A stretch of DNA of 64,000 bases from Pseudomonadota bacterium (GTDB lineage: Bacteria > Pseudomonadota > Alphaproteobacteria > Acetobacterales > Acetobacteraceae): positions 1-64,000 of the forward strand of contig JAJZFB010000044.1 of NCBI GenBank assembly GCA_021805545.1, read 5' to 3'. The translations under genes and the position numbers were made by a program. Under the pieces are notes generated by a model. That model was not told where the DNA came from, searched no databases, and worked only from the letters and a program-made list of their open reading frames with translations. Numbering within the stretch: the first letter of the stretch is position 1; every line of letters starts with the position of its first letter. This document shows, piece by piece, positions 42,722-59,373 of the stretch.

Positions 42722-44083
42722 ATGAGCAGCGGCCCCGGCACTTTTTCCTATACCGGTACAATCCAGACCGACACCATCAGCGTCAGCGGTGTTTACGACA
42801 TTACGGCGGACGGGGCGCAAGGCGGAAGCTACAGCAGCGCCGCGCAGGCCGGTGGCAAGGGGGCTGCGGTCAGCGGCGACATCTATCTTGCCGCGGGCAC
42901 GGTGCTCGAAATTGTGGTTGGCGGCCAGGGTGGCACGCAGTCTTACGGCGGCGGCGGCGGCGGCGGCAGTTTTGTCATCGAGACGAATAACGGCACCAGC
43001 CCCGTCGATACGCTTCTGGCCGTGGCTGGCGGCGGCGGCGGGGCCGGAACACACGGCGCTGGCGGCGGTGGGGCTGGCAGCACAGCGGCAACCGGCGGTG
43101 CTGGCGGTGGAACCGGCGCCGGCAGCGGTGGCGTGAATGGCACCGCGGGCAGTGGCGGCGTGAGCGGCGGCGGCGGCGGCGGGTATACCGGTGGCAATGG
43201 CGGTGCGCAGGCCGCAACAGGCGGCGCGGGGGGCATATCGGGCACCAGCTTCGCGGGCGGCGCCGGGAGTGGAAATTCCGGCGGCGCAGGTGGTTTTGGC
43301 GGCGGCGGCGGCGGCGGCTTTAGCGGCGGCGGCGGTGGTGGCGGCTATGGCGGCGGCGGCGGCGGCGGCCATGGCGGCGGCAGCGGCGGCGGTGGCGGTG
43401 GCTCGTACACTGCCGATTTAACGAAGGTAACCGCCTCGTCCGGCACTCAATCTGGTAACGGCCTGGTCAGCCTGGCGCTGCTGTGCTTCCTGGCGGGCAC
43501 GCATATCAGCACGCCAGATGGCGAAACCGCCGTGGAAGCGCTGCAACCCGGCGATATGGTGCTGACGGCGGATGGCCACGCCGTGCCGGTGCGCTGGGTT
43601 GGCGTGCGCGCCGTTTCCACCCGTTTTGCGGACCCGCTGCGCGCCTACCCCATCCGCATTTGCGCCGGTGCCTTGGGCGGCAACATCCCCGCCCGCGACC
43701 TGCTGGTGTCGCCCGACCATGCCATGTTCGTGGGCGGCATTCTGGCGCATGCCGGGGCCTTGGTGAATGGTATTTCCATCACCCGCGAAGCCTCCATGCC
43801 GGAGGTTTTCACCTATTATCATGTCGAAATCGCCGCACATGCGCTGATTCTGGCCGAGGGCGCGCCCGCCGAAACATTTGTGGATAATGCCAGCCGCATG
43901 GCTTTCGATAACTGGGCGGAATATGCGGCGCAATACGGGCACGAGACACCAATCGCCGAAATGCCCTACCCGCGCGCCAAATCCGCACGCCAGATACCGC
44001 AAGATTTGCGCCGCCTGCTGGACGAACGCGCCAGCAGCTTTGGCGGCAGCGTTGGCGTTGGTAAAATCACCCGGCACGCCTAA
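42722..44083 (+). CDS. Glycine-rich protein with C-terminal Hint (hedgehog/intein) domain
   Basis: Long GGGGAG/GGGGGGG tract, then LCFLAGTHISTPDGETAVEALQPGDMVLTADGHAVPVRWVG..LLVSPDHAMFVGG. Confidence 0.85.
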   Translation: MSSGPGTFSYTGTIQTDTISVSGVYDITADGAQGGSYSSAAQAGGKGAAVSGDIYLAAGTVLEIVVGGQGGTQSYGGGGGGGSFVIETNNGTSPVDTLLAVAGGGGGAGTHGAGGGGAGSTAATGGAGGGTGAGSGGVNGTAGSGGVSGGGGGGYTGGNGGAQAATGGAGGISGTSFAGGAGSGNSGGAGGFGGGGGGGFSGGGGGGGYGGGGGGGHGGGSGGGGGGSYTADLTKVTASSGTQSGNGLVSLALLCFLAGTHISTPDGETAVEALQPGDMVLTADGHAVPVRWVGVRAVSTRFADPLRAYPIRICAGALGGNIPARDLLVSPDHAMFVGGILAHAGALVNGISITREASMPEVFTYYHVEIAAHALILAEGAPAETFVDNASRMAFDNWAEYAAQYGHETPIAEMPYPRAKSARQIPQDLRRLLDERASSFGGSVGVGKITRHA

Positions 44084-44832: not shown

Positions 44833-45678
44833 ATGGAACGGGTCGAGTTCGAAGGCGCGGGCGTTAAAATTATTGGCGATATGGCGGGGCCGCAAGGTGC
44901 GCCGCCGGTTCTGTTCATGCATGGCGGCGGGCAAACCCGGCAAAGCTGGGGCGATGCGGTGGAAGAAGCGGCACGCCGCGGCTACCGCGCCGTAACGGTG
45001 GATTTGCGCGGCCATGGCGAGAGCGGCTGGGCGCCCGGCGGGCATTACAGCATGGAGGATTTTTCAGGCGACATACGCAATGTCATCGCCACGCTCGGCG
45101 CGCCGCCCGTGCTGGTCGGCGCCTCGCTCGGCGGGCTGGTGGGCATGACCATCGCCGCGGCACCCCCGCCCCAGGTACGCGGGCTGGTGCTGGTGGATGT
45201 GGCGGTGCAGCTAGAGGAAGAGGGCACCAAGGAAATCGGCGCCTTCATGGCCAGCGCGCCCAACGGCTTCGCCTCGCTGGAAGAGGCGGCGGATGCCGTG
45301 GCCGCCTATCTGCCGCACCGCAAGCGCCCCAAGGACACATCCGGCCTGATGCGTAATTTGCGCCTGCGCGAGGATGGGCGGCTGCACTGGCACTGGGACC
45401 CCGCCTTCACCCGCCTGGACCCGGAAACGGCCAGGAATTTCTCCACCGGGTTCGAGGCCGCGGCCCGCGCGCTGCGCGTGCCGGTGCTGCTCATCCGTGG
45501 CGGGCGCAGCCGGGTGCTGAGCCAGGCGGGGGCACAATCCTTCCTCAAACTGGTGCCCGGCGCCGAATATGTGGATGTAGCGGGCGCCGACCACATGGTG
45601 GCGGGCGATGCCAACGACGCCTTCAGCGAAGCCGTGTTCCGGTTTCTGGCCGCGCACGTCCCTCTGCCCCCGCGATGA
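44833..45678 (+). CDS. Alpha/beta hydrolase
   Basis: VLFMHGGGQTRQSW, VDLRGHGESGW, VLVGASLGGLVGM nucleophile elbow, GADHMVAGDAND. Confidence 0.92.
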   Translation: MERVEFEGAGVKIIGDMAGPQGAPPVLFMHGGGQTRQSWGDAVEEAARRGYRAVTVDLRGHGESGWAPGGHYSMEDFSGDIRNVIATLGAPPVLVGASLGGLVGMTIAAAPPPQVRGLVLVDVAVQLEEEGTKEIGAFMASAPNGFASLEEAADAVAAYLPHRKRPKDTSGLMRNLRLREDGRLHWHWDPAFTRLDPETARNFSTGFEAAARALRVPVLLIRGGRSRVLSQAGAQSFLKLVPGAEYVDVAGADHMVAGDANDAFSEAVFRFLAAHVPLPPR

Positions 45679-45751: not shown

Positions 45752-46921
45752 ATGTCCTCTGCCGTCATCGTCAGCGCCGTCCGCACCGCCGTGGGCACCG
45801 CCCGCAAAGGCGCGCTCGCCAATACCCCGGCAGAGGTGCTGGCCGCCACGGTGCTGAAGGCGGCGGTGGAGCGCTCGGGCTTCGCGCCCGCCGAATTGGA
45901 TGACATCATCCTGGCCGAATCCCTCTATGGCGGCGGCGCCGTGGCGCGCTACGCGGCGGTGGAGCTGGGCTGGATGCATGTGGCCGGCATGGCCATGAAC
46001 CGCCATTGCGCCGGCAGCCTCAGCGCCGTGGGCCTGGCCGCCGCCACCGTGCTCTCGGGCATGGAGCGCGTGATGATCGCGGGCGGCGTCAATTCCAGCT
46101 CGCTCTCGCCGCGCCTGCAACAGCGCGACGGGGCCACCGGCGAGATGAAAGACTGGTTCCCCGCCACCCACCCGGACAGCAGGGAAGCCCCCAACCGCGA
46201 CATGTCCATCACCGTGGGCTGGAACGCGGCGCAGGAAGCCGGGCTGACGCGCGAGGATATGGATGCCTGGGCGCTGCGCTCGCACCAGCGCGCCATCGCG
46301 GCCATCGATGCCGGGCATTTCGAGGCGGAAATCGTGCCCGTGCGCGTGCGCAATGCCGAGGGCACGGAATTCGACTTCAAGGTGGATGAGCACCCGCGCC
46401 GCGACACCACCATGGAAAAACTCGCCGGGCTGAAAGTGCTGCACCCGGAAATTCCCGGCTTCTCCATTACCGCCGGCAATGCCTCCGGCGCCAACGATGC
46501 CGCCTCCGCCCTGGTGGTCACCACCGATGCCATCGCCAAGGCCGGGGGCAAGGCCATCCAGGCCAAAATCCTGGGCTGGACCTCGCTGGGCATAGACCCG
46601 CGCCGCACCGGCGCCTCGGTGCCGCCCACGGTGGAAAAACTGCTCAAGCGCACCGGTGTGGCGCTGAAGGACATCAAATTGTGGGAAATCAACGAGGCCT
46701 TCGCCGCCGTGCCGCTGGTGGCCTGCCGTGTGCTGGGGCTGGATGAAGAGAACGTGAACATTTCCGGCAGCGGCTGCTCCATCGGCCACCCCATCGGCGC
46801 CTCGGGCGGGCGCATGCTCGCCACCCTCATCAACGGCCTCAAGCGCCGCGGCGGCGGGCTTGGCGTGGCCGCCATGTGCGCGGGCGGCGGCCAGGCCGGA
46901 GCGGTGCTTATCGAGGTTTAA
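45752..46921 (+). CDS. Acetyl-CoA acyltransferase (thiolase)
   Basis: MSSAVIVSAVRTAVGTARKGALANTPAEVLAATVL, MNRHCAGSLSAV, NEAFAAVPLVACRVLGLD, GCSIGHPIGASGGRMLATL, CAGGGQAGAVLIE. Confidence 0.93.
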   Translation: MSSAVIVSAVRTAVGTARKGALANTPAEVLAATVLKAAVERSGFAPAELDDIILAESLYGGGAVARYAAVELGWMHVAGMAMNRHCAGSLSAVGLAAATVLSGMERVMIAGGVNSSSLSPRLQQRDGATGEMKDWFPATHPDSREAPNRDMSITVGWNAAQEAGLTREDMDAWALRSHQRAIAAIDAGHFEAEIVPVRVRNAEGTEFDFKVDEHPRRDTTMEKLAGLKVLHPEIPGFSITAGNASGANDAASALVVTTDAIAKAGGKAIQAKILGWTSLGIDPRRTGASVPPTVEKLLKRTGVALKDIKLWEINEAFAAVPLVACRVLGLDEENVNISGSGCSIGHPIGASGGRMLATLINGLKRRGGGLGVAAMCAGGGQAGAVLIEV

Positions 46922-47024
46922 GCTCCCACCGGCGTCCACATTGTCCGAATCAATCAATTTCTGGCCGGGGTTTTCGCCCATAAGCGGCGCAATATTCTGG
47001 AATGAGCGAATTTCGAGGATCACC

Positions 47025-48212
47025 ATGAAAGCAGGCTTTATCGGGTTGGGAAGCATGGGCGCGCCGATTGCCCGCAGGCTGGCGCGCTGCGGGTTTGAGG
47101 TCATAGGCTGCGATGTCTCCGCCGAAATGCTGGCCGCGTTCGATGAACCCGGCACAATTCGCGAAACTGACCCGGTTGCCACGGCCAAACGCTCGGAAAT
47201 GCTGGGCATTTGCGTGCGGACGGATGAGCAGCTTGAGAGCCTGGCCGGTGACGGGCGGCTGTTCGAGGCGTTGGGCAAAGGCGGCATCGTCATCCTCCAT
47301 TCCACCGTCTCGCCCGAACTGGCCCAAAAGCTGGCGGTCAAGGCAAAGGAATATGGCGTGGGCTTTGTCGATGTGGGCGTCTCCGGCGGCGGGCCTGCCG
47401 CGATCGAGGGTAAGCTCTCCCTGTTCGTCGGCGGCGAGGATGCGGATGTCGAGCGCGCCCGCCCCTGGCTGGAAGCCATCGGCAAACAGCTCTCGCATCT
47501 CGGCCCGGTGGGGCGCGGGCAGGAGGGCAAGCTGCTCAACAACCTCATTTCCGTCGCCAATTACGGCATGTCCACCGCCATCATCGATGTCGGGCTGGAT
47601 ATGGGCTTCGACCGGCAGCAGCTCATCGGCGCCTTCATGGCCGGCTCGGCGCAGAGCTTCGCGCTGGGCGTCGGCCCGCGCATGGTGCAGCCGCGCACGG
47701 GGCTGGGCGCCACGGGCAGCTTCACCGGCCTGCACGACCTGCTGAAAAAGGACGTGGAGCATTGCCGGGATCTTCCGGTACGGGAAACCGCCGCGCTCAA
47801 CAGCCTGCTCGATGCCTGCGGCTATATGCTGGCGCGCATCCGCCGCGCGGCCATCGAGTCCGAGGGCGGCGCGCCGCCCGTGGACCCGCAAAAAACGGTC
47901 GATGCGTATTTCGCCGCCATCCGTGCCAAGGATATTGACGCGCTGATGGGCCTTTACGCCGAAAATGCCAGCTTCACCCTGCCCAACGGCAAGAGCTTCA
48001 CTGGCAAAGACAATATCCGGCAGGTGCATCTCGGCGTGTTTGCAGCAGGTTCGCCCATTCCCACCCCCGGCACGCGCTTTGCCGGGGCGGCGGGCATTGC
48101 GGTCGAGATCGAAGCGCGGCTGCCCGATGGCAGCGTGCGGCAGACCACCAACCATTACCGCTTCGATGATACCGGCAAGATCAGCACGCTGGGCGTTTAT
48201 ATGCGCGGGTGA
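47025..48212 (+). CDS. 3-hydroxyisobutyrate dehydrogenase-like NAD-binding protein fused to a C-terminal SnoaL-like domain
   Basis: MKAGFIGLGSMGAPIARRLARCGFEVIGCD, FVDVGVSGGGPAAIEGKLSLFVGG, GQEGKLLNNL; C-terminus TVDAYFAAIRAKDIDALMGLYAENASFTLPNGKSFTGKDNI. Confidence 0.85.
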   Translation: MKAGFIGLGSMGAPIARRLARCGFEVIGCDVSAEMLAAFDEPGTIRETDPVATAKRSEMLGICVRTDEQLESLAGDGRLFEALGKGGIVILHSTVSPELAQKLAVKAKEYGVGFVDVGVSGGGPAAIEGKLSLFVGGEDADVERARPWLEAIGKQLSHLGPVGRGQEGKLLNNLISVANYGMSTAIIDVGLDMGFDRQQLIGAFMAGSAQSFALGVGPRMVQPRTGLGATGSFTGLHDLLKKDVEHCRDLPVRETAALNSLLDACGYMLARIRRAAIESEGGAPPVDPQKTVDAYFAAIRAKDIDALMGLYAENASFTLPNGKSFTGKDNIRQVHLGVFAAGSPIPTPGTRFAGAAGIAVEIEARLPDGSVRQTTNHYRFDDTGKISTLGVYMRG

Positions 48213-48454
48213 GCTGTTCCAGGCCCGTACCCCGCCCCTTGCGGTGGCGCGCCACTTTGCTAATGCAATGTACAGGGAGAGAGGCCGGCGGCGCCATGGC
48301 GCGGGCGGTCAGGTTTTTTCCCGCAATTCTGGCGGCGCCCCGGCGGATATAATCGCCAGGGCGAAATCATGATTGGCTGCTTGTTACCCCGCCGGGGCGC
48401 GGGCAGAACGTGACAGAGCTTCATCGCCAGCCGATGGGAGAGGAAAGGACGAAC

Positions 48455-49459
48455 ATGGCCACCACGACAGCAGGATTGAACGCGGCCGTACCTGACGCGG
48501 CAACGCAGGTCGAAATCTACCGCCGCATGAACCTCATCATGCAGAATGACGAGGCGTCGCGGAAAATCATCCGCTCCGGCCGCCTGATGATGCCGTATTA
48601 CTCGCAGCGCGGGCAGGAGGTCATTCCCTCCGCCATCTCCGTCAACCTGAACGATGACGACAAGATCTGCACCATCTATCGCGGCATTCACGACATGCTG
48701 GCCAAGGGCGTGCCCCTTAAGCTGCTCTGGGCGGAAATCGCGGGCCGTGTGACCGGCACCTGCAAGGGCAAGGGCGGGCCGATGCACATCACCCACCCCG
48801 CCTCTGGCGCCATCCTCACCACCGGCATTGTCGGCTCCTCCATGCCCATCGCCAACGGCCTGGCCTGGGCCGCCAAGCTGGACAAATCCCGCCAGGTGGT
48901 CATTGCCAATTTCGGCGACGGCGCCTCCAATATCGGCGCGTTCCACGAGAGCCTCAACCTGGCCTCGCTGTGGAAGCTGCCGGTTATTTTCGTCTGCCAG
49001 AATAACCGCTTCGCCGAGCATACGCGCTACGAGAACGGCACCTCGGTGGATAAAATCTCCAAACGCGCCATCGGCTACAACATGCCGGGCTTCACCGTGG
49101 ACGGCAACGACCCGCACGAGATGTACGCCACCGCGCATGAAGCCATCGAGCGCGCCCGCGCCGGCGAAGGCCCGACCCTGATCGAGGCGATGACCTTCCG
49201 CTTCTTCGGCCATGTGTTCGGCGACGATGATTTCTACATGACCAAGGAAGAAAAAGCCGCGGCCATGGCGAAAGACCCCGTGCCGCTGTTCCGCGCCAGG
49301 CTGATTGCCGATGGCACCGCCACCGAGGCGCAGTTGGCTGGGATGGAGGCGAAGATTGCCGCAGACATCCAGGAAGCCATCGAATTCGCGCTGGCCTCCG
49401 ACATGCCGCCGCTCGAAGAGCTGACCCGCGATGTTTATGCCGAGCAGGGAGTTGCCTGA
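48455..49459 (+). CDS. TPP-dependent 2-oxo acid/acetoin-type dehydrogenase E1 alpha subunit
   Basis: YYSQRGQEVIPSAISVNL, GKGGPMHITHPASGAILTTGIVGSSMPIANGLAWA, VIANFGDGASNIGAFHESLNLASLWKLPVIFVCQNN. Confidence 0.92.
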   Translation: MATTTAGLNAAVPDAATQVEIYRRMNLIMQNDEASRKIIRSGRLMMPYYSQRGQEVIPSAISVNLNDDDKICTIYRGIHDMLAKGVPLKLLWAEIAGRVTGTCKGKGGPMHITHPASGAILTTGIVGSSMPIANGLAWAAKLDKSRQVVIANFGDGASNIGAFHESLNLASLWKLPVIFVCQNNRFAEHTRYENGTSVDKISKRAIGYNMPGFTVDGNDPHEMYATAHEAIERARAGEGPTLIEAMTFRFFGHVFGDDDFYMTKEEKAAAMAKDPVPLFRARLIADGTATEAQLAGMEAKIAADIQEAIEFALASDMPPLEELTRDVYAEQGVA

Positions 49460-50454
49460 TGTCTGTTGAAACCAAGAAAATCACCATCATCCAGGCGATC
49501 AACGAGGCGATCGCCGAGGCCATGGAAGCCGATCCGAAAGTGATCGTGCTGGGCGAGGACGTGGCGGACCGCGAGGGCGGCGGCGTTGTGGGCGTCACGC
49601 GCGGCCTCTCCACCCGCTTTGGCGATGAGCGCGTGCGCTCCACCCCCATTACCGAGCAGGCCATTATCGGCGCGGCCATCGGTGCCTCCATCGGCGGCTA
49701 CAAGGTTGTGGCCGAGATCATGCTGATGAACTTCACCACGGTGGCGATGGACATGATCGTCAACCACGCCGCCAAGCTGCGCTTCATGTCCGGCGGCCAG
49801 ACCGGCGTGCCCATCGTCATCCGCATGATGACGGGTGCCGGCATTTCCTCCGCCGGCCAGCATTCAGACTTCCTGGAAGCCTGGTTCGCGCATACGCCGG
49901 GCCTGAAGGTCGTCATGCCGTCCAGCCCGGAAGAAGCGAAGGGGCTGATGCTCTCCGCCATCGCCGACCCCGACCCGGTGATGTTCGTGGAATGCACCCG
50001 CGCCTATTTCACGCCGTATGAAACCCCGGTGAAAGTGGCGCCCATTCCGCTGGGCAAGGCCCGGGTCACCAAGCAAGGCACGGACGTTACGATTATCTCC
50101 TATTCGGAGATTTTCCTGCGCGCCACGGCAGCAGCCGCCGAGCTGGCGAAGGAAGGCATCTCGGCCGAGCTGATCGATTTGCGCACCATCTCCCCCTGGG
50201 ACCGCGAGACGGTTCTGGCCTCGGTCCGCAAAACCGGCCGCGCCGTTGTGGCGCATGAGGCAGTGAAGCAGTTTGGCGTGGGCGCTGAAATTGCCGCCGT
50301 GCTGCAGGACGAGCTGTTCGGCACGCTGAAGGCGCCGGTGAAGCGCGTCGGCGCGCCCTTTACCTCCGTGCCGTTCAGCGGCGCGCTGGAGCAGGCCTTC
50401 CTGGTCAGCGCGGCGGATATTGTGGCGGCGGCCAAGGCCACGCTGGGCAAATAA
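49459..50454 (+). CDS. TPP-dependent dehydrogenase E1 beta subunit
   Basis: TIIQAINEAIAEAMEADPKVIVLGEDVADREGGGVVGVTRGLSTRFGDERVRSTPITEQAIIGAAIGASIGG; transketolase C domain; overlaps E1 alpha stop. Confidence 0.93.
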   Translation: MSVETKKITIIQAINEAIAEAMEADPKVIVLGEDVADREGGGVVGVTRGLSTRFGDERVRSTPITEQAIIGAAIGASIGGYKVVAEIMLMNFTTVAMDMIVNHAAKLRFMSGGQTGVPIVIRMMTGAGISSAGQHSDFLEAWFAHTPGLKVVMPSSPEEAKGLMLSAIADPDPVMFVECTRAYFTPYETPVKVAPIPLGKARVTKQGTDVTIISYSEIFLRATAAAAELAKEGISAELIDLRTISPWDRETVLASVRKTGRAVVAHEAVKQFGVGAEIAAVLQDELFGTLKAPVKRVGAPFTSVPFSGALEQAFLVSAADIVAAAKATLGK

Positions 50455-50459
50455 CCCAA

Positions 50460-50499
50460 AACGCCAGCCTGCACGCCGCAAGGCGGGCAGGCTGGCGTT
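50460..50499. terminator. Intra-operon long hairpin with GCAA tetraloop
   Basis: AACGCCAGCCTGC-A-CGCC-GCAA-GGCG-G-GCAGGCTGGCGTT directly after the E1 beta stop; no T-tract, so attenuator/processing signal is as likely as terminator. Confidence 0.65.
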
Positions 50500-50598: not shown

Positions 50599-50829
50599 AT
50601 GGCGACCGACATCATCCTTCCCAAAATCGGCTTTTCCATGACCGAAGGCGTGCTGGCCGAATGGCTGGTGGCCGATGGCGCCTCCGTGACCGAGGGCCAG
50701 CCCATCTTCACGCTGGAGAGCGACAAATCCACCAACGAGGTGGAATCCCCCGCCGCCGGCACCATCAAAATCACTGGCGTGCCTGGCCAGACCTACGAGG
50801 TTGGCGCGATCATCGGCACCATCGCGTAA
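50599..50829 (+). CDS. Stand-alone lipoyl/biotinyl-attachment domain protein (76 aa)
   Basis: MATDIILPKIGFSMTEGVLAEWLVADGASVTEGQPIFTLESDKSTNEVESPAAGTIKITGVPGQTYEVGAIIGTIA; complete single lipoyl domain with ESDKS at the lysine turn. Confidence 0.92.
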   Translation: MATDIILPKIGFSMTEGVLAEWLVADGASVTEGQPIFTLESDKSTNEVESPAAGTIKITGVPGQTYEVGAIIGTIA

Positions 50830-50870
50830 GCCTTTACGCGCGTTTAGCGCGGGGACGATGAAATGACGCG

Positions 50871-50901
50871 GCGGCGCGCCGGGCTCAGCCTGGCGCGCCG
50901 C
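50871..50901. terminator. GC-rich hairpin GCGGCGCGCCGGGCT-C-AGCCTGGCGCGCCGC
   Basis: 15-bp arms with one wobble pair, between lipoyl-domain gene and flavoprotein gene. Confidence 0.55.
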
Positions 50902-50966
50902 AAGCGTTGCAATTCAAGACTCAGCGCGTAATCTGCGCCGCGAAAGCAAAAATGGGGAGCCGCCAT

Positions 50967-52676
50967 ATGAGCACACAGCAATTTGACGAGATGTTCGATT
51001 TCGTTGCCGTTGGCAGTGGCGGCGGCTCCATGTGCGCGGCGCTGGTGCTGCGCAAGCTCGGCAAGAGCGTTCTCATCCTGGAAAAAACCGGCCTTGTCGG
51101 CGGCACCACGGCGCGCTCTGGCGGGGTGATGTGGGTGCCCAATAACCGCTTCATGGAGGCCGACGGCATCGAGGACAGCTACGAGAAAGCGGCGCAATAT
51201 CTCGACGCCACATCCGGCCAGCCGGACGACGCCCCAGCCGCCTCGCCCGAGCGCCGCGCCGCTTATTTGCAGCAAAGCCCGAAAATGGTCGATTTCCTCG
51301 TCGAGCAGGGCATAAGGCTGCGCCGCATCCCGTACTACCCGGATTATTACGACCATCTGCCCGGCGGCTCCGTGCCTGGCCGCACCGTTACGGCGGAGCT
51401 GTTCAACGTGAAGGAGCTGCCCGCCGAATGGCAGGCCAAACTCCGCCCCAGCGCCATCCCCTTCCCCGCCCATCTCGACGAGCTGTACTGGCTGCCCACG
51501 CTCACGCGCTCGATGAAAGGTAAGCTGAACCTCGCCAAAATCATGCTGCGCGGCTTGGCGGCGAAGCTCACCGGCAAGGAGCTGGCCCCGGCGGGCCGCG
51601 CGCTACAGGGCCGCATGCTCCAGGCGGTGCTCAAGGCAGGCGCGGATATCCGCGTCAATGCGGGCGTCTCCGCGCTGATTATGGAAGACGGCGCGGTGAA
51701 GGGCGTTGTCACCACCAAGGATGGCGCGCCCTGGCGCGTGGGCGCCAGGCTCGGCGTGCTCATCAACGCCGGCGGTTTTGCCCAGAACCAGGCGATGCGC
51801 GCCAAATTCATGCCCGAAACCTCCAGCGAATGGACCGGCGTGATCGAGGGCGACACGGGCGAGATGCTGCAGGAGATGATGAACCAGGGCGCCGCCGTGG
51901 CGCAGATGGACGAGACCATAGGCTGCCAGATGGCCCTGCCCCCCGGCCGCGAGAACAAAAGCGGCAACGGCGTCACCTTCGGCGCCTTCGCCGGGCAGAT
52001 GGACATTGCCAAGCCGCACGGCATCATCGTGGACCAGACCGGCGTGCGCTACATGAGCGAGGGCAGCTCCTACTCCGAATTCTGCATGACCATGCGCAAG
52101 CGCCACAAAACCGTGCCCGCCATCCCCAGCTACTGGATCATGGATGACCAGTACATGAAAACCTACATGTTCTGCGGCACCATGCCCGGCAAGGCAAAGC
52201 CACAGGCATGGTATGAGTCCGGCTGGCTGACCAAGGCCGATACGCTGGAGGAGCTGGCGGGCAAAACCGGTATCAATCCAGCCACACTCAAAGCCACGGT
52301 GGAGCGCTTTAATGAAGATGCGCGCGCCGGGCACGACACGCAATTTGGCCGTGGCGAGCGTGCCTTCGATAAATGGCTGGGCGATGCCGTGGCCAAGGGC
52401 AACCCCTCGCTCGGCGCCATCGAGAAAGGCCCGTTCTACGCCGCCAAGGTGGTGCCGGGCGACGTTTCCACCTTTGGCGGGGTGATGACCGACGTGAATG
52501 CCCGCGTGCTGCGCGAAGATGGCAGCCCCATTCCCGGCCTGTACGCCACCGGCACCTCGGCCGCCTCGGTCTTCGGGCGCTGTGCGGTGGGGGCCGGGGC
52601 AAGCATCGGCCCTGCCTTCACCTGGGGCTATGTAGCCGCCCAGCACGCGGCAAATGCCGGTAATTTGGCCGTGTAA
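50967..52676 (+). CDS. FAD-dependent 3-ketosteroid-delta1-dehydrogenase/fumarate-reductase-like flavoprotein
   Basis: FDFVAVGSGGGSMCAALVLRKLGKSVLILEKTGLVGGTTARSGGVMWVPNN; C-terminal GVMTDVNARVLREDGSPIPGLYATGTSAASVFGRCAVGAGASIGPAFTWGYVAA. Confidence 0.87.
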   Translation: MSTQQFDEMFDFVAVGSGGGSMCAALVLRKLGKSVLILEKTGLVGGTTARSGGVMWVPNNRFMEADGIEDSYEKAAQYLDATSGQPDDAPAASPERRAAYLQQSPKMVDFLVEQGIRLRRIPYYPDYYDHLPGGSVPGRTVTAELFNVKELPAEWQAKLRPSAIPFPAHLDELYWLPTLTRSMKGKLNLAKIMLRGLAAKLTGKELAPAGRALQGRMLQAVLKAGADIRVNAGVSALIMEDGAVKGVVTTKDGAPWRVGARLGVLINAGGFAQNQAMRAKFMPETSSEWTGVIEGDTGEMLQEMMNQGAAVAQMDETIGCQMALPPGRENKSGNGVTFGAFAGQMDIAKPHGIIVDQTGVRYMSEGSSYSEFCMTMRKRHKTVPAIPSYWIMDDQYMKTYMFCGTMPGKAKPQAWYESGWLTKADTLEELAGKTGINPATLKATVERFNEDARAGHDTQFGRGERAFDKWLGDAVAKGNPSLGAIEKGPFYAAKVVPGDVSTFGGVMTDVNARVLREDGSPIPGLYATGTSAASVFGRCAVGAGASIGPAFTWGYVAAQHAANAGNLAV

Positions 52677-52738
52677 CGCCCCGCCTAGCCCTTGCCGGGC
52701 TTGCAGCGGGGCCATTGTTGCGGCAAGCATCGGCTCCC

Positions 52739-53392
52739 ATGAAAAAGACCAACAAAGACGGGCAGGCTATTGGCCGTAAAGGCGCCGAAAGCCGCGCCAG
52801 GCTCCTGGCTGCCGCGCGTCAGCTTCTCATGGAGCTTTCAACAGCCCGCAAGCTGACAGCCAGCGCCATCGCGCGCGCCGCGGGCCTCGCCTCGCAAACA
52901 TTTTACCTCTATTTCGACGATGTGGAGGAAATTCTACTCTGCCTCTCGGAAGAAGCTTCGGCTGATACAACCGCGATCATCGAAGCGCTGGACAGCGCCT
53001 GGGACACGGCGGCGCCACAAATATATGCGCAAAACGTGGTGGATGCGCTTTACCAATACTGGGACCGCCACAGGCCGATTCTCAACATACGCAATTATAT
53101 GGCCGACAGGGGCGACGAGGCCTTTTCCAAATTGCGCAGTGAAAGCGCGATCCCCATCATCACCAGAATCGCGCGGCGCATCCGTTCCGGCCAGGGTGAG
53201 GGCAGGCTGAGCGAGCGAGCTTCCCTGGCGCGGGCCATCACCATCTTCGCGGCCATCGAGCGGGTCGCGGCGCGCTATGCCAGCTATGAAGGTAATAATT
53301 TTATGCCAGGCGCGGCGGAAATGAAGCGGGCGGAAGCAGACATCATGGCCATGCTGATGTCGCCCATACCCGCCATGCAAGGTCTGGCATGA
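52739..53392 (+). CDS. TetR-family transcriptional regulator
   Basis: RLLAAARQLLMELSTARKLTASAIARAAGLASQTFYLYFDDVEEILLCL. Confidence 0.9.
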   Translation: MKKTNKDGQAIGRKGAESRARLLAAARQLLMELSTARKLTASAIARAAGLASQTFYLYFDDVEEILLCLSEEASADTTAIIEALDSAWDTAAPQIYAQNVVDALYQYWDRHRPILNIRNYMADRGDEAFSKLRSESAIPIITRIARRIRSGQGEGRLSERASLARAITIFAAIERVAARYASYEGNNFMPGAAEMKRAEADIMAMLMSPIPAMQGLA

Positions 53393-53799
53393 AAGGCAAA
53401 GCCATGGTGAACCCTTCCGCAAAACGCGCCATCCCCGGCTTGGCGCTGCTGCTGGCGGGGCTGGCCGCCATGCCGGCACAGGCCAGCGTAACCGGCATGT
53501 GGCGTGTAACCGGCACCATCTCGGGCAAGGCTTTCGCGCTGGATTGCAAATTTCTGCCAAATGGCCCGGCGCTGGGCGGCGAATGCACCAAGGCGGCGGG
53601 CAGTGGCCACGGCGCGGGCAAAACTTATGTGTTGAGCACCGGCGCGGTCTCCGGCGGTACCATAAGCTGGGGCTACAAGGCGCATTACATGCTCATGAGC
53701 TTTACCGTAAGCTATGCCGGCCAGCTTAAGGGCAACGAAATTCAGGGTAGGGTGAAAGCCGCCGGGCGGCAGGGGCAATTCACCGCCGTCCGGGAATAA
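53389..53799 (+). CDS. Small secreted hypothetical protein
   Basis: Signal peptide AIPGLALLLAGLAAMPAQASVTG; 4-bp overlap with the TetR gene. Confidence 0.6.
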   Translation: MKGKAMVNPSAKRAIPGLALLLAGLAAMPAQASVTGMWRVTGTISGKAFALDCKFLPNGPALGGECTKAAGSGHGAGKTYVLSTGAVSGGTISWGYKAHYMLMSFTVSYAGQLKGNEIQGRVKAAGRQGQFTAVRE

Positions 53800-53802
53800 T
53801 AA

Positions 53803-54525
53803 TCAGTCCGGCGCCGCAAAAGCCTCGCCCCGGTCCGCCATGGGCGCCGCGCCGGGGCGGCTGAAATCAATATCCGCGCCGGGGCGGCGGAAAGATTGCG
53901 CGGCTCGCCCAGGCTGGAAATTATAGCACGACCCTGCGGGGAATTCGGTGGCGGACATGCCAGCGGGCATTTCACGCCCGCGCCCATGGGCCACAATGGC
54001 GGCCCAGCGCAAAATCCGCATGGCTTCGGCGCCTTGCTTGTCCTGCTGGGCAATCACCTCGTTCAACTGGCCCATCTGCCTGCCGGCCAGTTCCGCCGGG
54101 GCGGTGAATACATCGCCCTGGCCCAACGCCCAGTCCAGCACCAGCGCGCCATTGCGCAGCAGCGTGGCACGGCGCGCGCCATCCGCCGCATCACTCACCA
54201 TTACGTCATAGGCCACCGGCGCCGTTTCATCCGCATGGGCCGCGCCAAAAATGGCCAGGTCGTGCAAATGCGTGCAGTTCTGCGTCTTCTGCCCGCGCTT
54301 GGGCACATCGGTCAGGGCCACGCCGGCAAAGGTTTCCGCAAGCTGGGCCATGGCGCCGGGGCACATGGTCCAGGGCGAGCGCTTCATCTCGCTCGCCACG
54401 CTCGTAATCACCCCGTTATCATGGCCAAGGATGACCACCATGCGGTGGTAGTCATCCTCCAGCTCAGCCGTCACCAAACCCTGTGCGGGTTCGATGAGAA
54501 TGCGGCGGCGATACCCCGGCTGCAT
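53803..54525 (-). CDS. DUF2889 family protein
   Basis: YRRRILIEPAQGLVTAELEDDYHRMVVILGHDNGVITSVASEMKRSPWTMCPGAMAQLAETFAGVAL..NCTHLHDLAIFGAAHA. Confidence 0.82.
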   Translation of the reverse strand: MQPGYRRRILIEPAQGLVTAELEDDYHRMVVILGHDNGVITSVASEMKRSPWTMCPGAMAQLAETFAGVALTDVPKRGQKTQNCTHLHDLAIFGAAHADETAPVAYDVMVSDAADGARRATLLRNGALVLDWALGQGDVFTAPAELAGRQMGQLNEVIAQQDKQGAEAMRILRWAAIVAHGRGREMPAGMSATEFPAGSCYNFQPGRAAQSFRRPGADIDFSRPGAAPMADRGEAFAAPD

Positions 54526-55685
54526 CAGTCGCGCGCCAGCAGCAGCACAGAGGCCAGCGGCCCGCCGCCCGATGCCGCCACGGCCACTTTCGGGGCGCCC
54601 TTTATCTGCCGCGCGCCGCCCTGGCCGCGCAGCTGCACCACGGATTCATGCGCGAAGCCAAACCCATGCAGCCGCCCGGCGCCAATCTGCCCGCCAAACG
54701 TGTTCAGCGGCAGCTCGCCATCCAGCGCGATGCGGTGCCCGCCCTCGATGAACTTGCCGCCCTCGCCCACGCCGCAGAACCCCAGCCCTTCCAGCCAGGT
54801 GAGCGCGAGGAAGGCAAAGCCGTCGTAAAGCTGCACCGTGTCCACATCCTTGGGCTTGTAATCGGTATGTTTCCACAATTCCGCCCCGGTGGGGTACGAG
54901 GCCATGAACTCCGTCTGGTCCCAGCTATGGCGCTCAGACCTGTAGGCGGAGGCCGCGATGCGGATGGGCGTTGCCTTCACCTCGCCCAGCGCGTCCCCGG
55001 CAGAGACGATGAGCACGGTCGAGGCATCGGAGAACCGGTCGCAATCGAACAGGCACATCGGCTCGGCAATCAGCCGCGCTTCCATGTACTGCTCCAGCGT
55101 CAGCGGCTCGCGCACCAAGGCGCGCGGGTTCAGCAGCGCGTTCTTGCGGTCGGTGAGCGAGATTTGCGCCAGTTGCTCGCGCGTCATGCCGTATTTCTTC
55201 ACATGGCGCATGGCGTATTGCGCCACCCAGGTAACGGCGGAGGTGGCGTTGAAGGGCGCGGTCCATTGCGAGCCCGCCTCCACGCGCGCGCCGCGGCTCA
55301 TCGGGTAATCCTGCGGGCGGGCCATGGCCGCGGCCTCGTACACGGTGCGGAAGCAGATGACATGGCGCGCCAGCCCCGCTTTTACGGCGGCGGCAGCCGT
55401 GGCCACGGCGCCAAGCTGGGCCGAGGTTTCCATGCCGCCATTATACCAGCGCACCTTCAGGTGCAGCGCGTCGATCAAATCTTCCGCGCCCAGGGGCGAG
55501 AAGCCGAGATAGCCGGACATCTTGCCCGGATAGGTGGAAATACCGTCAATATCCGCGAGCGACAGGCCGGAATCATCCAGCGCCTCGCGGATGGCATCCA
55601 TGGTGAGGAGCAGCGGGTGGCGGGTGAGCTTCTGGCCAACCTGCGACTGGCCAATGCCGGTGATATACGCGTCCTTGCTGGCCAT
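54525..55685 (-). CDS. SCP2-type thiolase-like protein (Ltp2-like candidate)
   Basis: MASKDAYITGIGQSQVGQKLTRHPLLLTMDAIREALDDSGLSLADIDGISTYPG; VQLYDGFAFLALTWLEGLGFCGVGEGGKFI; LPLNTFGGQIGAGRLHGFGFAHESVVQLRG. Confidence 0.85.
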   Translation of the reverse strand: MASKDAYITGIGQSQVGQKLTRHPLLLTMDAIREALDDSGLSLADIDGISTYPGKMSGYLGFSPLGAEDLIDALHLKVRWYNGGMETSAQLGAVATAAAAVKAGLARHVICFRTVYEAAAMARPQDYPMSRGARVEAGSQWTAPFNATSAVTWVAQYAMRHVKKYGMTREQLAQISLTDRKNALLNPRALVREPLTLEQYMEARLIAEPMCLFDCDRFSDASTVLIVSAGDALGEVKATPIRIAASAYRSERHSWDQTEFMASYPTGAELWKHTDYKPKDVDTVQLYDGFAFLALTWLEGLGFCGVGEGGKFIEGGHRIALDGELPLNTFGGQIGAGRLHGFGFAHESVVQLRGQGGARQIKGAPKVAVAASGGGPLASVLLLARD

Positions 55686-55688
55686 GCT

Positions 55689-56093
55689 TCAACCCACCTT
55701 CCTGAACAGCGGCAGCCACACATCGTCCTGATGCAGGAACGACACTTCCACCTTGTCACCAATCTCCACCTCATTCACCGGGCAATCGATGATGTTGGTG
55801 GTGAGAAACACGCCCGGCGCGCCATCTATGGCCACGCGGGCGATGACGAACGGAACCTCCATGGCGGGGCTCCATTTCTGGTGGTTGATGGTGAAGGTAT
55901 CCACCACCCCCGTGCCCGGCACCACGCTTGGCGCCACGTTTTCCGAGAGGCAGTTGAAACAGATGGGGCGCGGCGGATGCAGGAAGGTTGTGCAATCCTG
56001 GCATTGCAGGAAGCGGAGTTTTCCATCCTCCCCGCTGGTCCAGAAAAACCGGTTATCCGGGTCAAGCCGGGGTAGAGACCGTGGTGATGACAT
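55689..56093 (-). CDS. DUF35 Zn-ribbon/OB-fold protein
   Basis: LRFLQCQDCTTFLHPPRPICFNCLSENVAPSVVPGTGVVDTFTINHQKW. Confidence 0.88.
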   Translation of the reverse strand: MSSPRSLPRLDPDNRFFWTSGEDGKLRFLQCQDCTTFLHPPRPICFNCLSENVAPSVVPGTGVVDTFTINHQKWSPAMEVPFVIARVAIDGAPGVFLTTNIIDCPVNEVEIGDKVEVSFLHQDDVWLPLFRKVG

Positions 56094-56100
56094 GCTTAAG

Positions 56101-57360
56101 TTAATCCCAACGTATCGGTAGTGAATCAATGGCCAGAATATTGCCGGCATGGAACCTGGCCGGCCTGGTCTCGTCCAGCCTGAACAGCGGCAGGCGGGCA
56201 AGCACTTCTTCGTAAACAACCTGCAATTCCACACGCGCCAGATGCGAGCCAAGGCAGCGATGCGGGCCAACACCAAAGGCAATATGCATCTTGTTCTCGC
56301 GGTTCATGTCGAATTTGTCCGGCGCGGGAAATTCACGCGCATCCAAATCGGCGCCGGGCAGGAAGATGACCACCCGCTCGCCCCGCTTCATCGCCCAGCC
56401 GCCCAGCTCCGTGTTTTTCGCCACGGCGCGCACGGGCACGGTAAAGGTGTAGCGGCGCAGAATTTCCTCCGCCGCCTCGGGAATCAGCTTGGGGCTGGCG
56501 CGCAGCTCGTTCTGGAAAACGGGGTTGAGTGCCAGATGGCGGATGCCATAGCCAATGCCGTTAATCACCGTATCCAGCCCGGCGATGAAGAGCAGGACGC
56601 CGTAATCTTCCATCAGCTCCATCGTCATCGGCTTGCCGTCAACCTCGGCCTGCCAGAGCAGGCTGATAAGGTCGTCCTTCGGTTCCGTGCGGCGCGCCTC
56701 CAGGGTTTCGCGCATCGCATCGGCCACTTTGCGGCTGCGGAACACGTAGTCGATGGGGCTTTGCGCCGGGGCCAGATGCTCATGCACCAGCACACGGAAT
56801 TCCGCCAGGCGCTCCACCGGCAGGCCGAGCATTTTCAGAAACACCGTCACCGGCAGCGGCTCGGCCACGGCGGAAATAAAATCGCAATGCCCCTGCTTGG
56901 CCACGGCATCGATAAGCTCTCCGGCGAAGGCGCGGATATCTTCCTTGCGCGCGGCCATGGCCTTGGGCGAGAAGGCGGCCTGCAGCGGCGCGCGGTAAAT
57001 GGTATGCGCCGGCGGGTCCAGGTTTATGGGCGTGGCGTTGGGGATATGGCCAAAATCCGGCGGCAGATGCGCCCTTAACGCCGCCATGGCCTCCGGCGGG
57101 GCGATGTTGCTGGTAAAGGCCGCGGTATCGCGCGAGAGGGCGTAATTCTCGGCATGGCCGGTTACCACCCAATGGCCCATGTTGCGCGGCGTCCAGAACA
57201 CCGGCGGGGCCACGCGCAGCAGCTCCAGCACGCGCTTATGCGGGTCCTGCGTCAGGCCGGGGTCCAGATACATATCGAAATCGTACACAGCCGCATCGGG
57301 CACATGGGCGGGCTTGGCAACGGCGGGGCTAAGCCCGGCGGCAATATTGTCCATGGTCAT
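56101..57360 (-). CDS. Cytochrome P450 (P450cam/CYP101-like)
   Basis: LFIAGLDTVINGIGYGIRHLA (I-helix), EEILRRYTF (ExxR), FGVGPHRCLGSHLARVEL (heme Cys), C-terminal SLPIRWD. Confidence 0.92.
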   Translation of the reverse strand: MTMDNIAAGLSPAVAKPAHVPDAAVYDFDMYLDPGLTQDPHKRVLELLRVAPPVFWTPRNMGHWVVTGHAENYALSRDTAAFTSNIAPPEAMAALRAHLPPDFGHIPNATPINLDPPAHTIYRAPLQAAFSPKAMAARKEDIRAFAGELIDAVAKQGHCDFISAVAEPLPVTVFLKMLGLPVERLAEFRVLVHEHLAPAQSPIDYVFRSRKVADAMRETLEARRTEPKDDLISLLWQAEVDGKPMTMELMEDYGVLLFIAGLDTVINGIGYGIRHLALNPVFQNELRASPKLIPEAAEEILRRYTFTVPVRAVAKNTELGGWAMKRGERVVIFLPGADLDAREFPAPDKFDMNRENKMHIAFGVGPHRCLGSHLARVELQVVYEEVLARLPLFRLDETRPARFHAGNILAIDSLPIRWD

Positions 57361-57533
57361 GTCAGCCTCCTTGGCGTTTGCTAAGAGTTTCCTGCCGCCG
57401 CACCGTCTTACGCGGCTGGCTGACGGATGATTTGCCCACTAAACCTGGTCAGCCCCCAACGTGGCCGCGCCGCCAGAGCATGGCGGCGGCGCGCGTCCGC
57501 TTCAAGCAGCCGGGCCAAATACCGTGCCTGCGA

Positions 57534-58376
57534 TTACCCGATTTTCGCCGCGCCCTGACGGAATGCGGCGATGGAACCGCCATCCACCAGCAAATCGCAG
57601 CCGGAGATGAAGCTGGCCTCGGCGCTGACCAGAAACTGCGCGGCGAGCGCGATGTCGTTGGCCACGCCGGGCCGGCCAAGCGGGGCGGCATTCTGCATGG
57701 CGGCGCCGCCAGAGGTTTGCGCCTCCTTCTGGCCCATCGGGGTCAGGATCATGCCTGGCGAGATAGAGGTGATGCGCGCGCCGAGCGGCCCCCAGGCAAG
57801 GGCACGGCGCTGGGTGAGCGCCAGCACGGCCTGCTTGCTGAGCGAATAGGAAATGCCGCCCGCTTTCTCGGCATCGCCCTGCGCCATGCCGTCAATCAAC
57901 GCGCTGATCCTGGGCATGAAATCCGGCGCCAGCGGGTCGGCCATCAGGGCCGCCGCTTCAGGAATTTGCGGCATGAGATGCCCCGCGGAAGAGGCGATGA
58001 GCACGGCGGCGGCGCCAGGGCGCAACAGGGGCTCGATGGCATCCAGCAGCCTTACCGTGGCCACCAGATTAACCTGCATGATTGGCCCGGCCTTGGCGAG
58101 CGAGGGAGAAAGCCCCGCCGTATGGATGAGGGTAAGGGGCAGGCCGCTCCGCATGTCCGCCATAATGGCCTGCAGCAGCGCCTCATTCCCCAAATCGCCC
58201 TGGTGCGCGCCGGTAACGGTGTAGCCCTCGGCCCGCAGCTCCTCGGCAAACTGCGCGAGCCTGGGGGAGGCGTCGGTCAGGACGAGATCCTGCGTGGTGC
58301 CCAGCAGCCGGGCGCAGGCTTTGCCCATGCCGCCCGAAGCCCCGGTAATAAGCGCCTTACGCCGTGTGATGGCCAT
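57534..58376 (-). CDS. Short-chain dehydrogenase/reductase
   Basis: KALITGASGGMGKACARLLG (TGxxxGxG), YSLSKQAVLALTQ (YxxxK). Confidence 0.88.
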   Translation of the reverse strand: MAITRRKALITGASGGMGKACARLLGTTQDLVLTDASPRLAQFAEELRAEGYTVTGAHQGDLGNEALLQAIMADMRSGLPLTLIHTAGLSPSLAKAGPIMQVNLVATVRLLDAIEPLLRPGAAAVLIASSAGHLMPQIPEAAALMADPLAPDFMPRISALIDGMAQGDAEKAGGISYSLSKQAVLALTQRRALAWGPLGARITSISPGMILTPMGQKEAQTSGGAAMQNAAPLGRPGVANDIALAAQFLVSAEASFISGCDLLVDGGSIAAFRQGAAKIG

Positions 58377-58450
58377 GTGGTTTCTCCCTATCTACGCAAT
58401 TTATGTAATTATGTAATTGGCGCCCGCCTTGCGGGGCGGGCGCGGCGGGA

Positions 58451-59176
58451 TCAGGCCTGGTCCCATTGCGTGAGCGCGGCGGCGATTTTGCGCACGAAGC
58501 GCGCCGCATCGGCGCCGTTGATCACGCGGTGATCGTAGCTGAGCGAGAGCGGCAAAATCTGGCGCGGGGCGAATTCATGCCCGTTCCACACCGGCCTTGT
58601 CTGCACGCTGGTAACGCCCAGAATGGCGACTTCCGGCGCGTTGATGATGGGGGTGAAATAGGTGCCGCCAATGCCGCCCAGCGAGGAGATGGAGAAGCAG
58701 CCGCCCTGCATTTTATCCATTGGCAGGCCCTTGGAGCGGGCCTGAAGGGAAACCTCCTTCAGCTCGGCGGCCAGGGTGTGGATGTCTTTCTGGTCCGCAT
58801 CGCGCAGCACGGGCACGAGCAGGCCGAGCGGGCCATCCACCGCGATGCCGATATGGAAGAATTTCTTCAGCACCAGCGTCTCGCCATCGGGCGTGAGCGA
58901 GGCGTTGAATTGCGGGTAGGCCCTGAGCGCCTCCACCACCGCCTTGATGAGGAAAATGAGGGGCGAAACCTTCTTTTCCATGGTCTTGCGGTAGGCTTCC
59001 AGCCCGGTCACATCCGCATCGTCCTGGTGCGTAACGTGGGGGATGGTGCTGGCATTGGTGACCATGGTCTTGGCCACAATCTTCTGGAAGCGGGTGCGCT
59101 TCACCGTATCGATCTCGCCAAATTGCGCGAAATAGGCCTCGGGCGTCGTCTCGTTGCTCACATTTTTCTCCAGCAC
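58451..59176 (-). CDS. 2-oxo acid dehydrogenase acyltransferase (E2) catalytic domain only
   Basis: FAQFGEIDTVKRTRFQKIVAKTMVTNASTIPHVTHQDDADVTGLEAYRK...GGCFSISSLGGIGGTYFTPIINAPEVAILGV...LSLSYDHRVINGADAARF; no lipoyl or peripheral-subunit-binding domain. Confidence 0.93.
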   Translation of the reverse strand: MLEKNVSNETTPEAYFAQFGEIDTVKRTRFQKIVAKTMVTNASTIPHVTHQDDADVTGLEAYRKTMEKKVSPLIFLIKAVVEALRAYPQFNASLTPDGETLVLKKFFHIGIAVDGPLGLLVPVLRDADQKDIHTLAAELKEVSLQARSKGLPMDKMQGGCFSISSLGGIGGTYFTPIINAPEVAILGVTSVQTRPVWNGHEFAPRQILPLSLSYDHRVINGADAARFVRKIAAALTQWDQA

Positions 59177-59373
59177 ATCCGGGGGGAGGCTTTCCTTAAC
59201 CCTTTCGGGTGGTCAAGCCATGGGGATCGCGGGCAGGATGTCATCGCCGGGGCGGTGAAACAAGATAGCCGTACCCCGCGCATCGCTCTGGCGATGATCG
59301 TGGCGCCATCTTGCCCCGCGCGCGGCGGGGCGCGAGGAGATTTGCACAATCAACCTGGGTAGGAGTCCGGCCA

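Follow-up and report, generated by a model that had tools for sequence, protein, structure and literature searches.

Genes and domain content of the split E2 locus

The window analyzed here is a 64,000-nucleotide stretch, bases 1–64000 of contig C27 (85,310 bp), from an Acetobacteraceae bin, very probably Acidocella, of 2.79 Mb that is 97.8% complete and consists of 96 contigs. It contains genes for a candidate 2-oxo acid dehydrogenase-family system in which the lipoyl domain and the catalytic core of the E2 acyltransferase are encoded as two separate proteins. In 2-oxo acid dehydrogenases, the lipoyl arm and the catalytic core of E2 are normally on one chain. These enzymes are the textbook case of a covalent swinging arm, with E1 and E3 anchored via the peripheral subunit-binding domain (PSBD). 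The first-pass annotation of this window had listed E1α, E1β, a complete 76-amino acid (aa) lipoyl domain, and a bare E2 core, and all four were confirmed at their positions by open reading frame (ORF) and Pfam checks (Table 1).

The E1 subunits belong to the thiamine diphosphate (ThDP)-dependent α2β2 type, based on PF00676, PF02779/PF02780, and PDB matches to the E1 of pyruvate dehydrogenase (PDH) and branched-chain 2-oxo acid dehydrogenase. The E1α ORF (48410–49459) is open from a GTG at 48410, and the ATG at 48455 is the likelier start. The E1β start overlaps the E1α stop at 49459. E1α showed 39–40% identity to AcoA, compared to 35% to the PDH E1α of the same genome. Its orthologs were 90% identical in other Acidocella-like bins and 62–74% identical in Sphingomonadales, Paraburkholderia, and Pseudomonas.

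The lipoyl gene follows E1β at a spacing of 144 bp, and its product holds nothing beyond one lipoyl domain (PF00364 over profile positions 2–73 of 73). Pfam matches were limited to PF00364 and PF13533, and the best NCBIfam match was the acetoin dehydrogenase E2 lipoyl domain (PRK14875, 74 bits). There was no GcvH family among the NCBIfam matches and no cysteine in the 76 aa. The ESDKS motif carries the predicted modifiable lysine, here on a separate protein. All 69 lipoyl segments located outside E2 ORFs keep this lysine, in most cases within ESDKS or ESEKS, and the solo orthologs were 76–77 aa long. The free proteins are one residue shorter after the AGT(I/L) strand than AcoC and the lipoyl domains of fused E2s, which suggests a separate lipoyl family rather than recent truncations.

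The window E2 is a catalytic core alone. PF00198 covered positions 4–228 of 232, with neither PF00364 nor PF02817, and no hidden lipoyl coding was found 5' of the gene (59177–59370). The GTG at 59161 is the probable start codon, giving a protein of ~236 aa, because a GGAG ribosome site and a GTG-AGC start are kept in near relatives. The protein could be aligned over its full length with 1eaa, the Azotobacter vinelandii E2p catalytic core (E 2e-70). The folds of the E2 core and of the lipoyl domain are settled by their sequence similarity to solved structures. The active site is intact, with the catalytic histidine motif DHRVING inside SYDHRVINGA and the ISSLG serine, which is an alanine in entry 1dpd. 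DHRxx[DN]G was kept in 51 of the 52 E2 ORFs without a lipoyl domain; in the single exception, probably L123, the reading frame was broken before the motif. PF02817 was likewise absent from eight other core-only E2s scanned. Against the AceF E2 equivalog TIGR01348, the window E2 scored 320 bits over the core part only, compared to a cut-off of 552.

Two other E2s are present in the window genome, both fused (C75 and C8). The only two PSBDs of this genome lie inside these fused proteins, and a search of the genome for a separate PSBD protein found none. E3 genes were found on C75 and C92, both over the family cut-off and neither linked to the window locus.

Conservation of the split

An E1α-based scan of 85,462 species genomes returned 80 loci. 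The conserved-neighborhood search proposed in the first-pass annotation, for E1α and E1β with a solo lipoyl gene and a core-only E2, recovered the four genes in consecutive order in 22 of these loci; E1α, E1β, and the lipoyl gene were consecutive in 23 more. There was no lipoyl–E2 fusion among the 80 loci, and lipoyl domain and core were separate genes in all relatives of the clade, so the swinging arm of a single E2 polypeptide is missing throughout. On a complete plasmid of Azospirillum sp. B510, the lipoyl gene adjoins the E2 core gene.

The same annotation had named two explanations that would overturn the split, a full-length E2 accompanying these E1 genes and an assembly error. No full-length E2 of this clade was found near any of the 80 E1 loci. 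Assembly error is excluded since the same intact genes occur in isolate genomes and in complete plasmids, of which those of Paraburkholderia sprentiae, Diaphorobacter sp. HDW4B, and Paraburkholderia sp. PGU19 carry all four. The split is therefore real and conserved, and is not a product of misassembly or decay. Its orthologous recurrence in dozens of genomes places the pattern far beyond chance.

A tree was built from 98 E2 cores that had been collected for their similarity to the window E2. It placed the 46 close core-only E2s in a single clade (99/99; 200/200 bootstrap trees) beside AceF-type full-length E2s. On this sampling, the split in the close family appears to have arisen once and then spread through Alpha-, Beta-, and Gammaproteobacteria. 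Distant core-only E2s of separate origin were also present in the tree, namely a five-sequence Sphingobium-type group and L087.

Co-occurrence of the components across genomes

The same-genus set comprised 38 genomes, including Acidocella sp. (L050) and Acidocella aquatica (L052). E1α was present in 11 of them, and the solo lipoyl protein was found in 10 of these 11 and in 0 of the 27 others. The core-only E2 occurred in 8 of the 11 E1α genomes (9 including a contig-end fragment, G020), compared to 1 of the 27 others. In a 385-genome sample of the class, E1α was found in the window genome only, and no core-only E2 of the window clade was found in the other genomes. Thus, in this sample, genomes without E1 also lack the core-only E2 of the window clade. 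The two shortest of the other E2s in the sample, whose open frames span 299 and 301 aa, carry a PSBD-like stretch and belong to another type.

Among the whole genomes behind the E1 loci, the solo lipoyl protein was present in 46/46. A close core-only E2, or at least a close E2, was found in 23 of these 46 carrier genomes. Five carried a divergent core-only E2 instead (G446, G457, G464, G465, and G466), and the remaining 18 had E1 and the solo lipoyl protein with fused E2s only. Hence what stays constant is the pair of E1 and free lipoyl carrier, with the E2 core as a frequent, non-obligatory partner.

Gene neighborhood and candidate pathway

The features of the window are collected in Table 1.

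Table 1. Coordinates and domain evidence of the split E2 genes and their neighbors in the window
Feature	Position	Strand	Evidence
E1 alpha subunit, ThDP-dependent 2-oxo acid dehydrogenase family	48455..49459	+	PF00676, 253 bits
E1 beta subunit	49459..50454	+	PF02779/PF02780; NCBIfam PRK09212, 332 bits (cut-off 321)
Free-standing lipoyl domain protein, 76 aa, lysine in LESDKS	50599..50829	+	PF00364, 65 bits
Core-only E2 acyltransferase, ORF open to 59176	58451..59161	-	PF00198, 248 bits
Acetyl-CoA acyltransferase (thiolase), probable pathway partner	45752..46921	+	PF00108/PF02803
3-Hydroxyisobutyrate dehydrogenase-like reductase with SnoaL-like tail, 5' of E1α	47022..48212	+	PF03446, PF12680
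KstD-like FAD dehydrogenase, probable pathway partner	50907..52676	+	PF00890; NCBIfam PRK12844, 621 bits (under cut-off 789)
Thiolase-like protein and ChsH2-like (zinc ribbon/OB) partner, probable pathway partners	54525..56102	-	PF22691; PF01796/PF12172
Cytochrome P450, probable pathway partner	56101..57360	-	PF00067

Further neighbors in the window were short-chain dehydrogenases/reductases, a ferredoxin, and an acyl-CoA (coenzyme A) dehydrogenase. Neighbors of E1 were counted by tblastn across 88 loci; clustering of longest ORFs was set aside because antisense ORFs in high-GC DNA make it undercount. As raw counts without a genome background frequency, a KstD-like FAD (flavin adenine dinucleotide) dehydrogenase was near E1 in 45 loci, a Rieske oxygenase in ~35, and an acyl-CoA dehydrogenase in 41. 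A CoA ligase and enoyl-CoA hydratases were often near E1 as well. In Paraburkholderia and Pseudomonas, the order was fixed as Rieske oxygenase, KstD-like dehydrogenase, E1α, E1β, lipoyl gene, E2 core, and CoA ligase. The thiolase was near E1 in Acidocella-like relatives (73–85% identity), the thiolase-like protein in Sphingobium loci (67–69%), and a P450 homolog in the Sphingobium loci L060, L061, L063, L065, and L067 (57–59%).

The KstD-like dehydrogenase, the Rieske oxygenase or P450, the CoA ligase, and the acyl-CoA enzymes suggest that the cluster may serve to break down an alicyclic, steroid- or terpenoid-like compound by a CoA-linked route. The Sphingobium isolates of a tomatine study (PMC10653915) carry the window-type E1 with the solo lipoyl protein; the main text of that study makes no mention of acetoin, oxoacid, or lipoyl genes (PMC10653915).

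Comparison with known systems

Compared to a canonical 2-oxo acid dehydrogenase complex, the window system lacks two defining architectural features, the tether and the PSBD. The AceF-type (long) PDH E2p (TIGR01348; A. vinelandii, Escherichia coli) is homologous to the window E2 end to end over the core, the DHRVING motif is shared with the A. vinelandii protein, and AceF-type E2s are the nearest full-length neighbors of the core-only E2 in the tree. However, the window E2 has no lipoyl domains, PSBD, or linker, and its partner E1 consists of α and β subunits rather than an AceE-type protein. A different likeness was seen to acetoin dehydrogenase (AcoABC). The lipoyl domain is nearest to that of AcoC, E1α is somewhat closer to AcoA than to the PDH E1α of its own genome, and the order E1α–E1β–lipoyl is shared. 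In AcoC, however, the lipoyl domain is fused to an alpha/beta-hydrolase, whereas the window lipoyl domain stands alone and the acyltransferase there is a true E2 core. The separate alpha/beta hydrolase at 44833 in the window resembled the AcoC domain at only 29% across 123 aa. Alpha/beta hydrolases were also considered as an AcoC-like stand-in acyltransferase in genomes without the E2 core and were rejected, as no consistent match was found (only L053, L071, and L096).

Splits of this sort have some precedent. For a lipoyl group used in trans, the nearest case is actinobacterial OdhA/KGD (PMC10415282); for a free lipoyl carrier, it is LbpA, a single-domain lipoyl protein of sulfur oxidation with two conserved cysteines (PMC6067878). 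Like the window E2, the E2 domain of OdhA/KGD has no lipoyl domain of its own, and the lipoyl-lysine is supplied by another protein (PMC10415282). It differs in being fused to E1 and in borrowing the lipoyl group of the PDH component AceF, whereas the window E1 and E2 are separate ORFs and the lipoyl domain is a small protein of its own. LbpA of Hdr-like sulfur oxidation and the glycine-cleavage H-protein share with the window protein the logic of a free single-domain carrier visiting separate enzymes. The first-pass annotation had drawn the H-protein analogy, which holds for this logic and fails for family membership, since the window protein is a PF00364 domain and not GcvH. LbpA and the H-protein are GcvH-type, whereas the window protein is an E2-type lipoyl domain, free of cysteine and linked to E1.

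In public records, these proteins are named 'lipoyl domain-containing protein' and '2-oxo acid dehydrogenase subunit E2', and no annotation or publication treating them as one split system was found. No description of a stand-alone lipoyl/E2-core system was found in the literature, with subscription journals mostly uncovered, so the novelty is provisional.

Proposed mechanism and alternative explanations

We consider it likely that the four polypeptides make up an acyl-CoA-forming member of the 2-oxo acid dehydrogenase family, with a separate diffusible protein as its lipoyl arm. This view draws on gene architecture, conservation, domain content, intact catalytic and lipoyl residues, and co-occurrence. 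In the proposed cycle, E1α and E1β with ThDP would cleave a 2-oxo acid, or an acyloin or diketone as in the near relative acetoin dehydrogenase, and would reductively acylate the lipoyl group of the 76-aa protein. Once loaded, this carrier would dock on the core-only E2, where the acyl group would be passed to CoA. The reduced carrier would be re-oxidized by a general E3 shared with the central complexes (the E3 genes on C75 and C92). Without a PSBD and a covalent tether, there can be no swinging arm and no anchoring of E1 or E3 on E2, so transfer would need diffusion and transient docking. Lipoylation, the reaction, its substrate, docking without a PSBD, an exclusive partnership, and the joint working of the proteins are all predictions from sequence.

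Several observations weigh against this four-protein system. The locus showed no linked gene for E3 or for lipoylation. In the window lineage, the two parts lie on opposite strands, 7.6 kb apart from lipoyl gene end to E2 gene end. The first-pass annotation had put them about 8 kb apart; their separateness stands, while this spacing is special to the window lineage and the genes are adjacent elsewhere. In the genome behind L051 (G424), E2 and the lipoyl gene are 47 kb apart. A second set of E1 and solo lipoyl genes on C37 of the window genome means that pairing of the core-only E2 with the window E1 is not unique. The same-genus co-occurrence with E1α (Fisher, 2e-8 for the solo lipoyl protein and 3e-5 to 3e-6 for the core-only E2) is uncorrected for shared ancestry. 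Finally, there are the 18 carrier genomes with fused E2s only. The proposal of the first-pass annotation, a lipoyl carrier in trans for a catabolic pathway, is therefore partly supported. Four-gene operons, a single clade, co-occurrence within the genus, and intact residues favor it; the suggestion that the system is dedicated holds only in part, given the missing linked E3 and those 18 genomes.

These 18 genomes would also fit an alternative in which the free lipoyl protein partners E1 only, acyl transfer falls to the E2 cores of central complexes or to another acyltransferase, and the core-only E2 acts as an optional booster or in some other role. The opposite strand of the E2 core gene in the window lineage agrees with this, and the sharing of lipoyl groups between complexes is known from actinobacterial OdhA. 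However, the E2 core gene adjoins the lipoyl gene in 22/80 loci across three classes, the proteins form one clade with an intact active site, and the core co-occurs with E1α within the genus, while the class sample has none without E1. We regard this alternative as unlikely, although it keeps appreciable weight. A second reading would make the solo domain a biotin carrier or a GcvH/LbpA-type carrier that is no partner of E1. PF00364 spans biotin and lipoyl domains alike, but the ESDKS motif is of the lipoyl type and not the biotin-type MKM, the best NCBIfam match is to acetoin dehydrogenase, and there is no cysteine. The solo gene also adjoins E1β in 45/80 loci and is present in all 46 carrier genomes, which makes this reading very improbable. 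Least credible of all is a pseudo-split, with the two parts left over from a full-length E2 that has broken up, or produced by an assembly or frameshift error in this bin. A source bin of 96 contigs, with the two parts separated and inverted, could give that impression; yet near-complete relatives, isolate genomes, and complete plasmids hold the same parts intact over their full reading frames, active residues and the 76-aa length are conserved, and the core-only E2s form one clade. It was rejected, being refuted already by recurrence in independent assemblies.

A further model, which we think quite unlikely, takes E1 and the free lipoyl carrier as the invariant unit of a ring-degrading pathway family, with an acyltransferase that is exchangeable or absent. 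E1 would cleave a C–C bond, acetoin dehydrogenase-like, in a cyclic diketone or acyloin formed by the KstD-like dehydrogenase and the Rieske oxygenase or P450. A steroid- or terpenoid-type ring would thereby be opened directly to an acyl-CoA via the diffusible lipoyl protein.

If the four-protein system holds, a conserved version free of tether and PSBD would allow a direct test of the tether's contribution, and parts of 76 and ~236 residues are easily made. It would also mark an as yet unassigned acyl-CoA-forming step in steroid-/terpenoid-degradation-like clusters of Sphingomonadales, Paraburkholderia, and Pseudomonas, in which current annotation lists the genes as generic fragments only.

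Additional observations

Between E1β and the lipoyl gene, a perfect 13-bp inverted repeat, AACGCCAGCCTGC / GCAGGCTGGCGTT, was spotted by eye at 50461–50499. It would form a hairpin with a GCAA loop, possibly a regulator of lipoyl expression or a repeat element.

The second solo lipoyl protein of the window genome (G000:C37:63136-63360; L157, L231) has an EMAKATQD motif and orthologs at L156, L158, and L159. Its gene lies 3' of E1α- and E1β-like coding that forms one read-through ORF, at least in the stretch seen. A luciferase-like flavoprotein gene adjoins in two of the loci of this type, and no E2 was nearby.

On a plasmid of Sphingobium sp. RAC03 (L128:8732-9727), a carboxymuconolactone-decarboxylase (AhpD-like) gene is directly 5' of the solo lipoyl gene, and AhpD-like relatives were also near it in a few other Sphingobium loci. 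For AhpD proteins elsewhere, lipoyl proteins serve as reductants.

A plasmid of Paracoccus seriniphilus (L238:2935-5911) carries a distant operon of E1α, E1β, solo lipoyl, and E2 core genes, with 42% identity for the lipoyl protein and an E2 of 226 aa. This is possibly a separate origin of the same split.

In another alphaproteobacterial family, the E2s of L245 and L248 (G153 and G258) are ~300 aa long, with a PSBD-like stretch and a core and no lipoyl domain; no lipoyl coding was found in the 1.5 kb upstream. By predicted domain layout, these are a different kind of lipoyl-less E2.

Unrelated to the split E2, the window encodes at 42722–44083 a glycine-rich protein whose C-terminal part resembles a Hint/intein-type domain (CFLAGTHISTPDG...).

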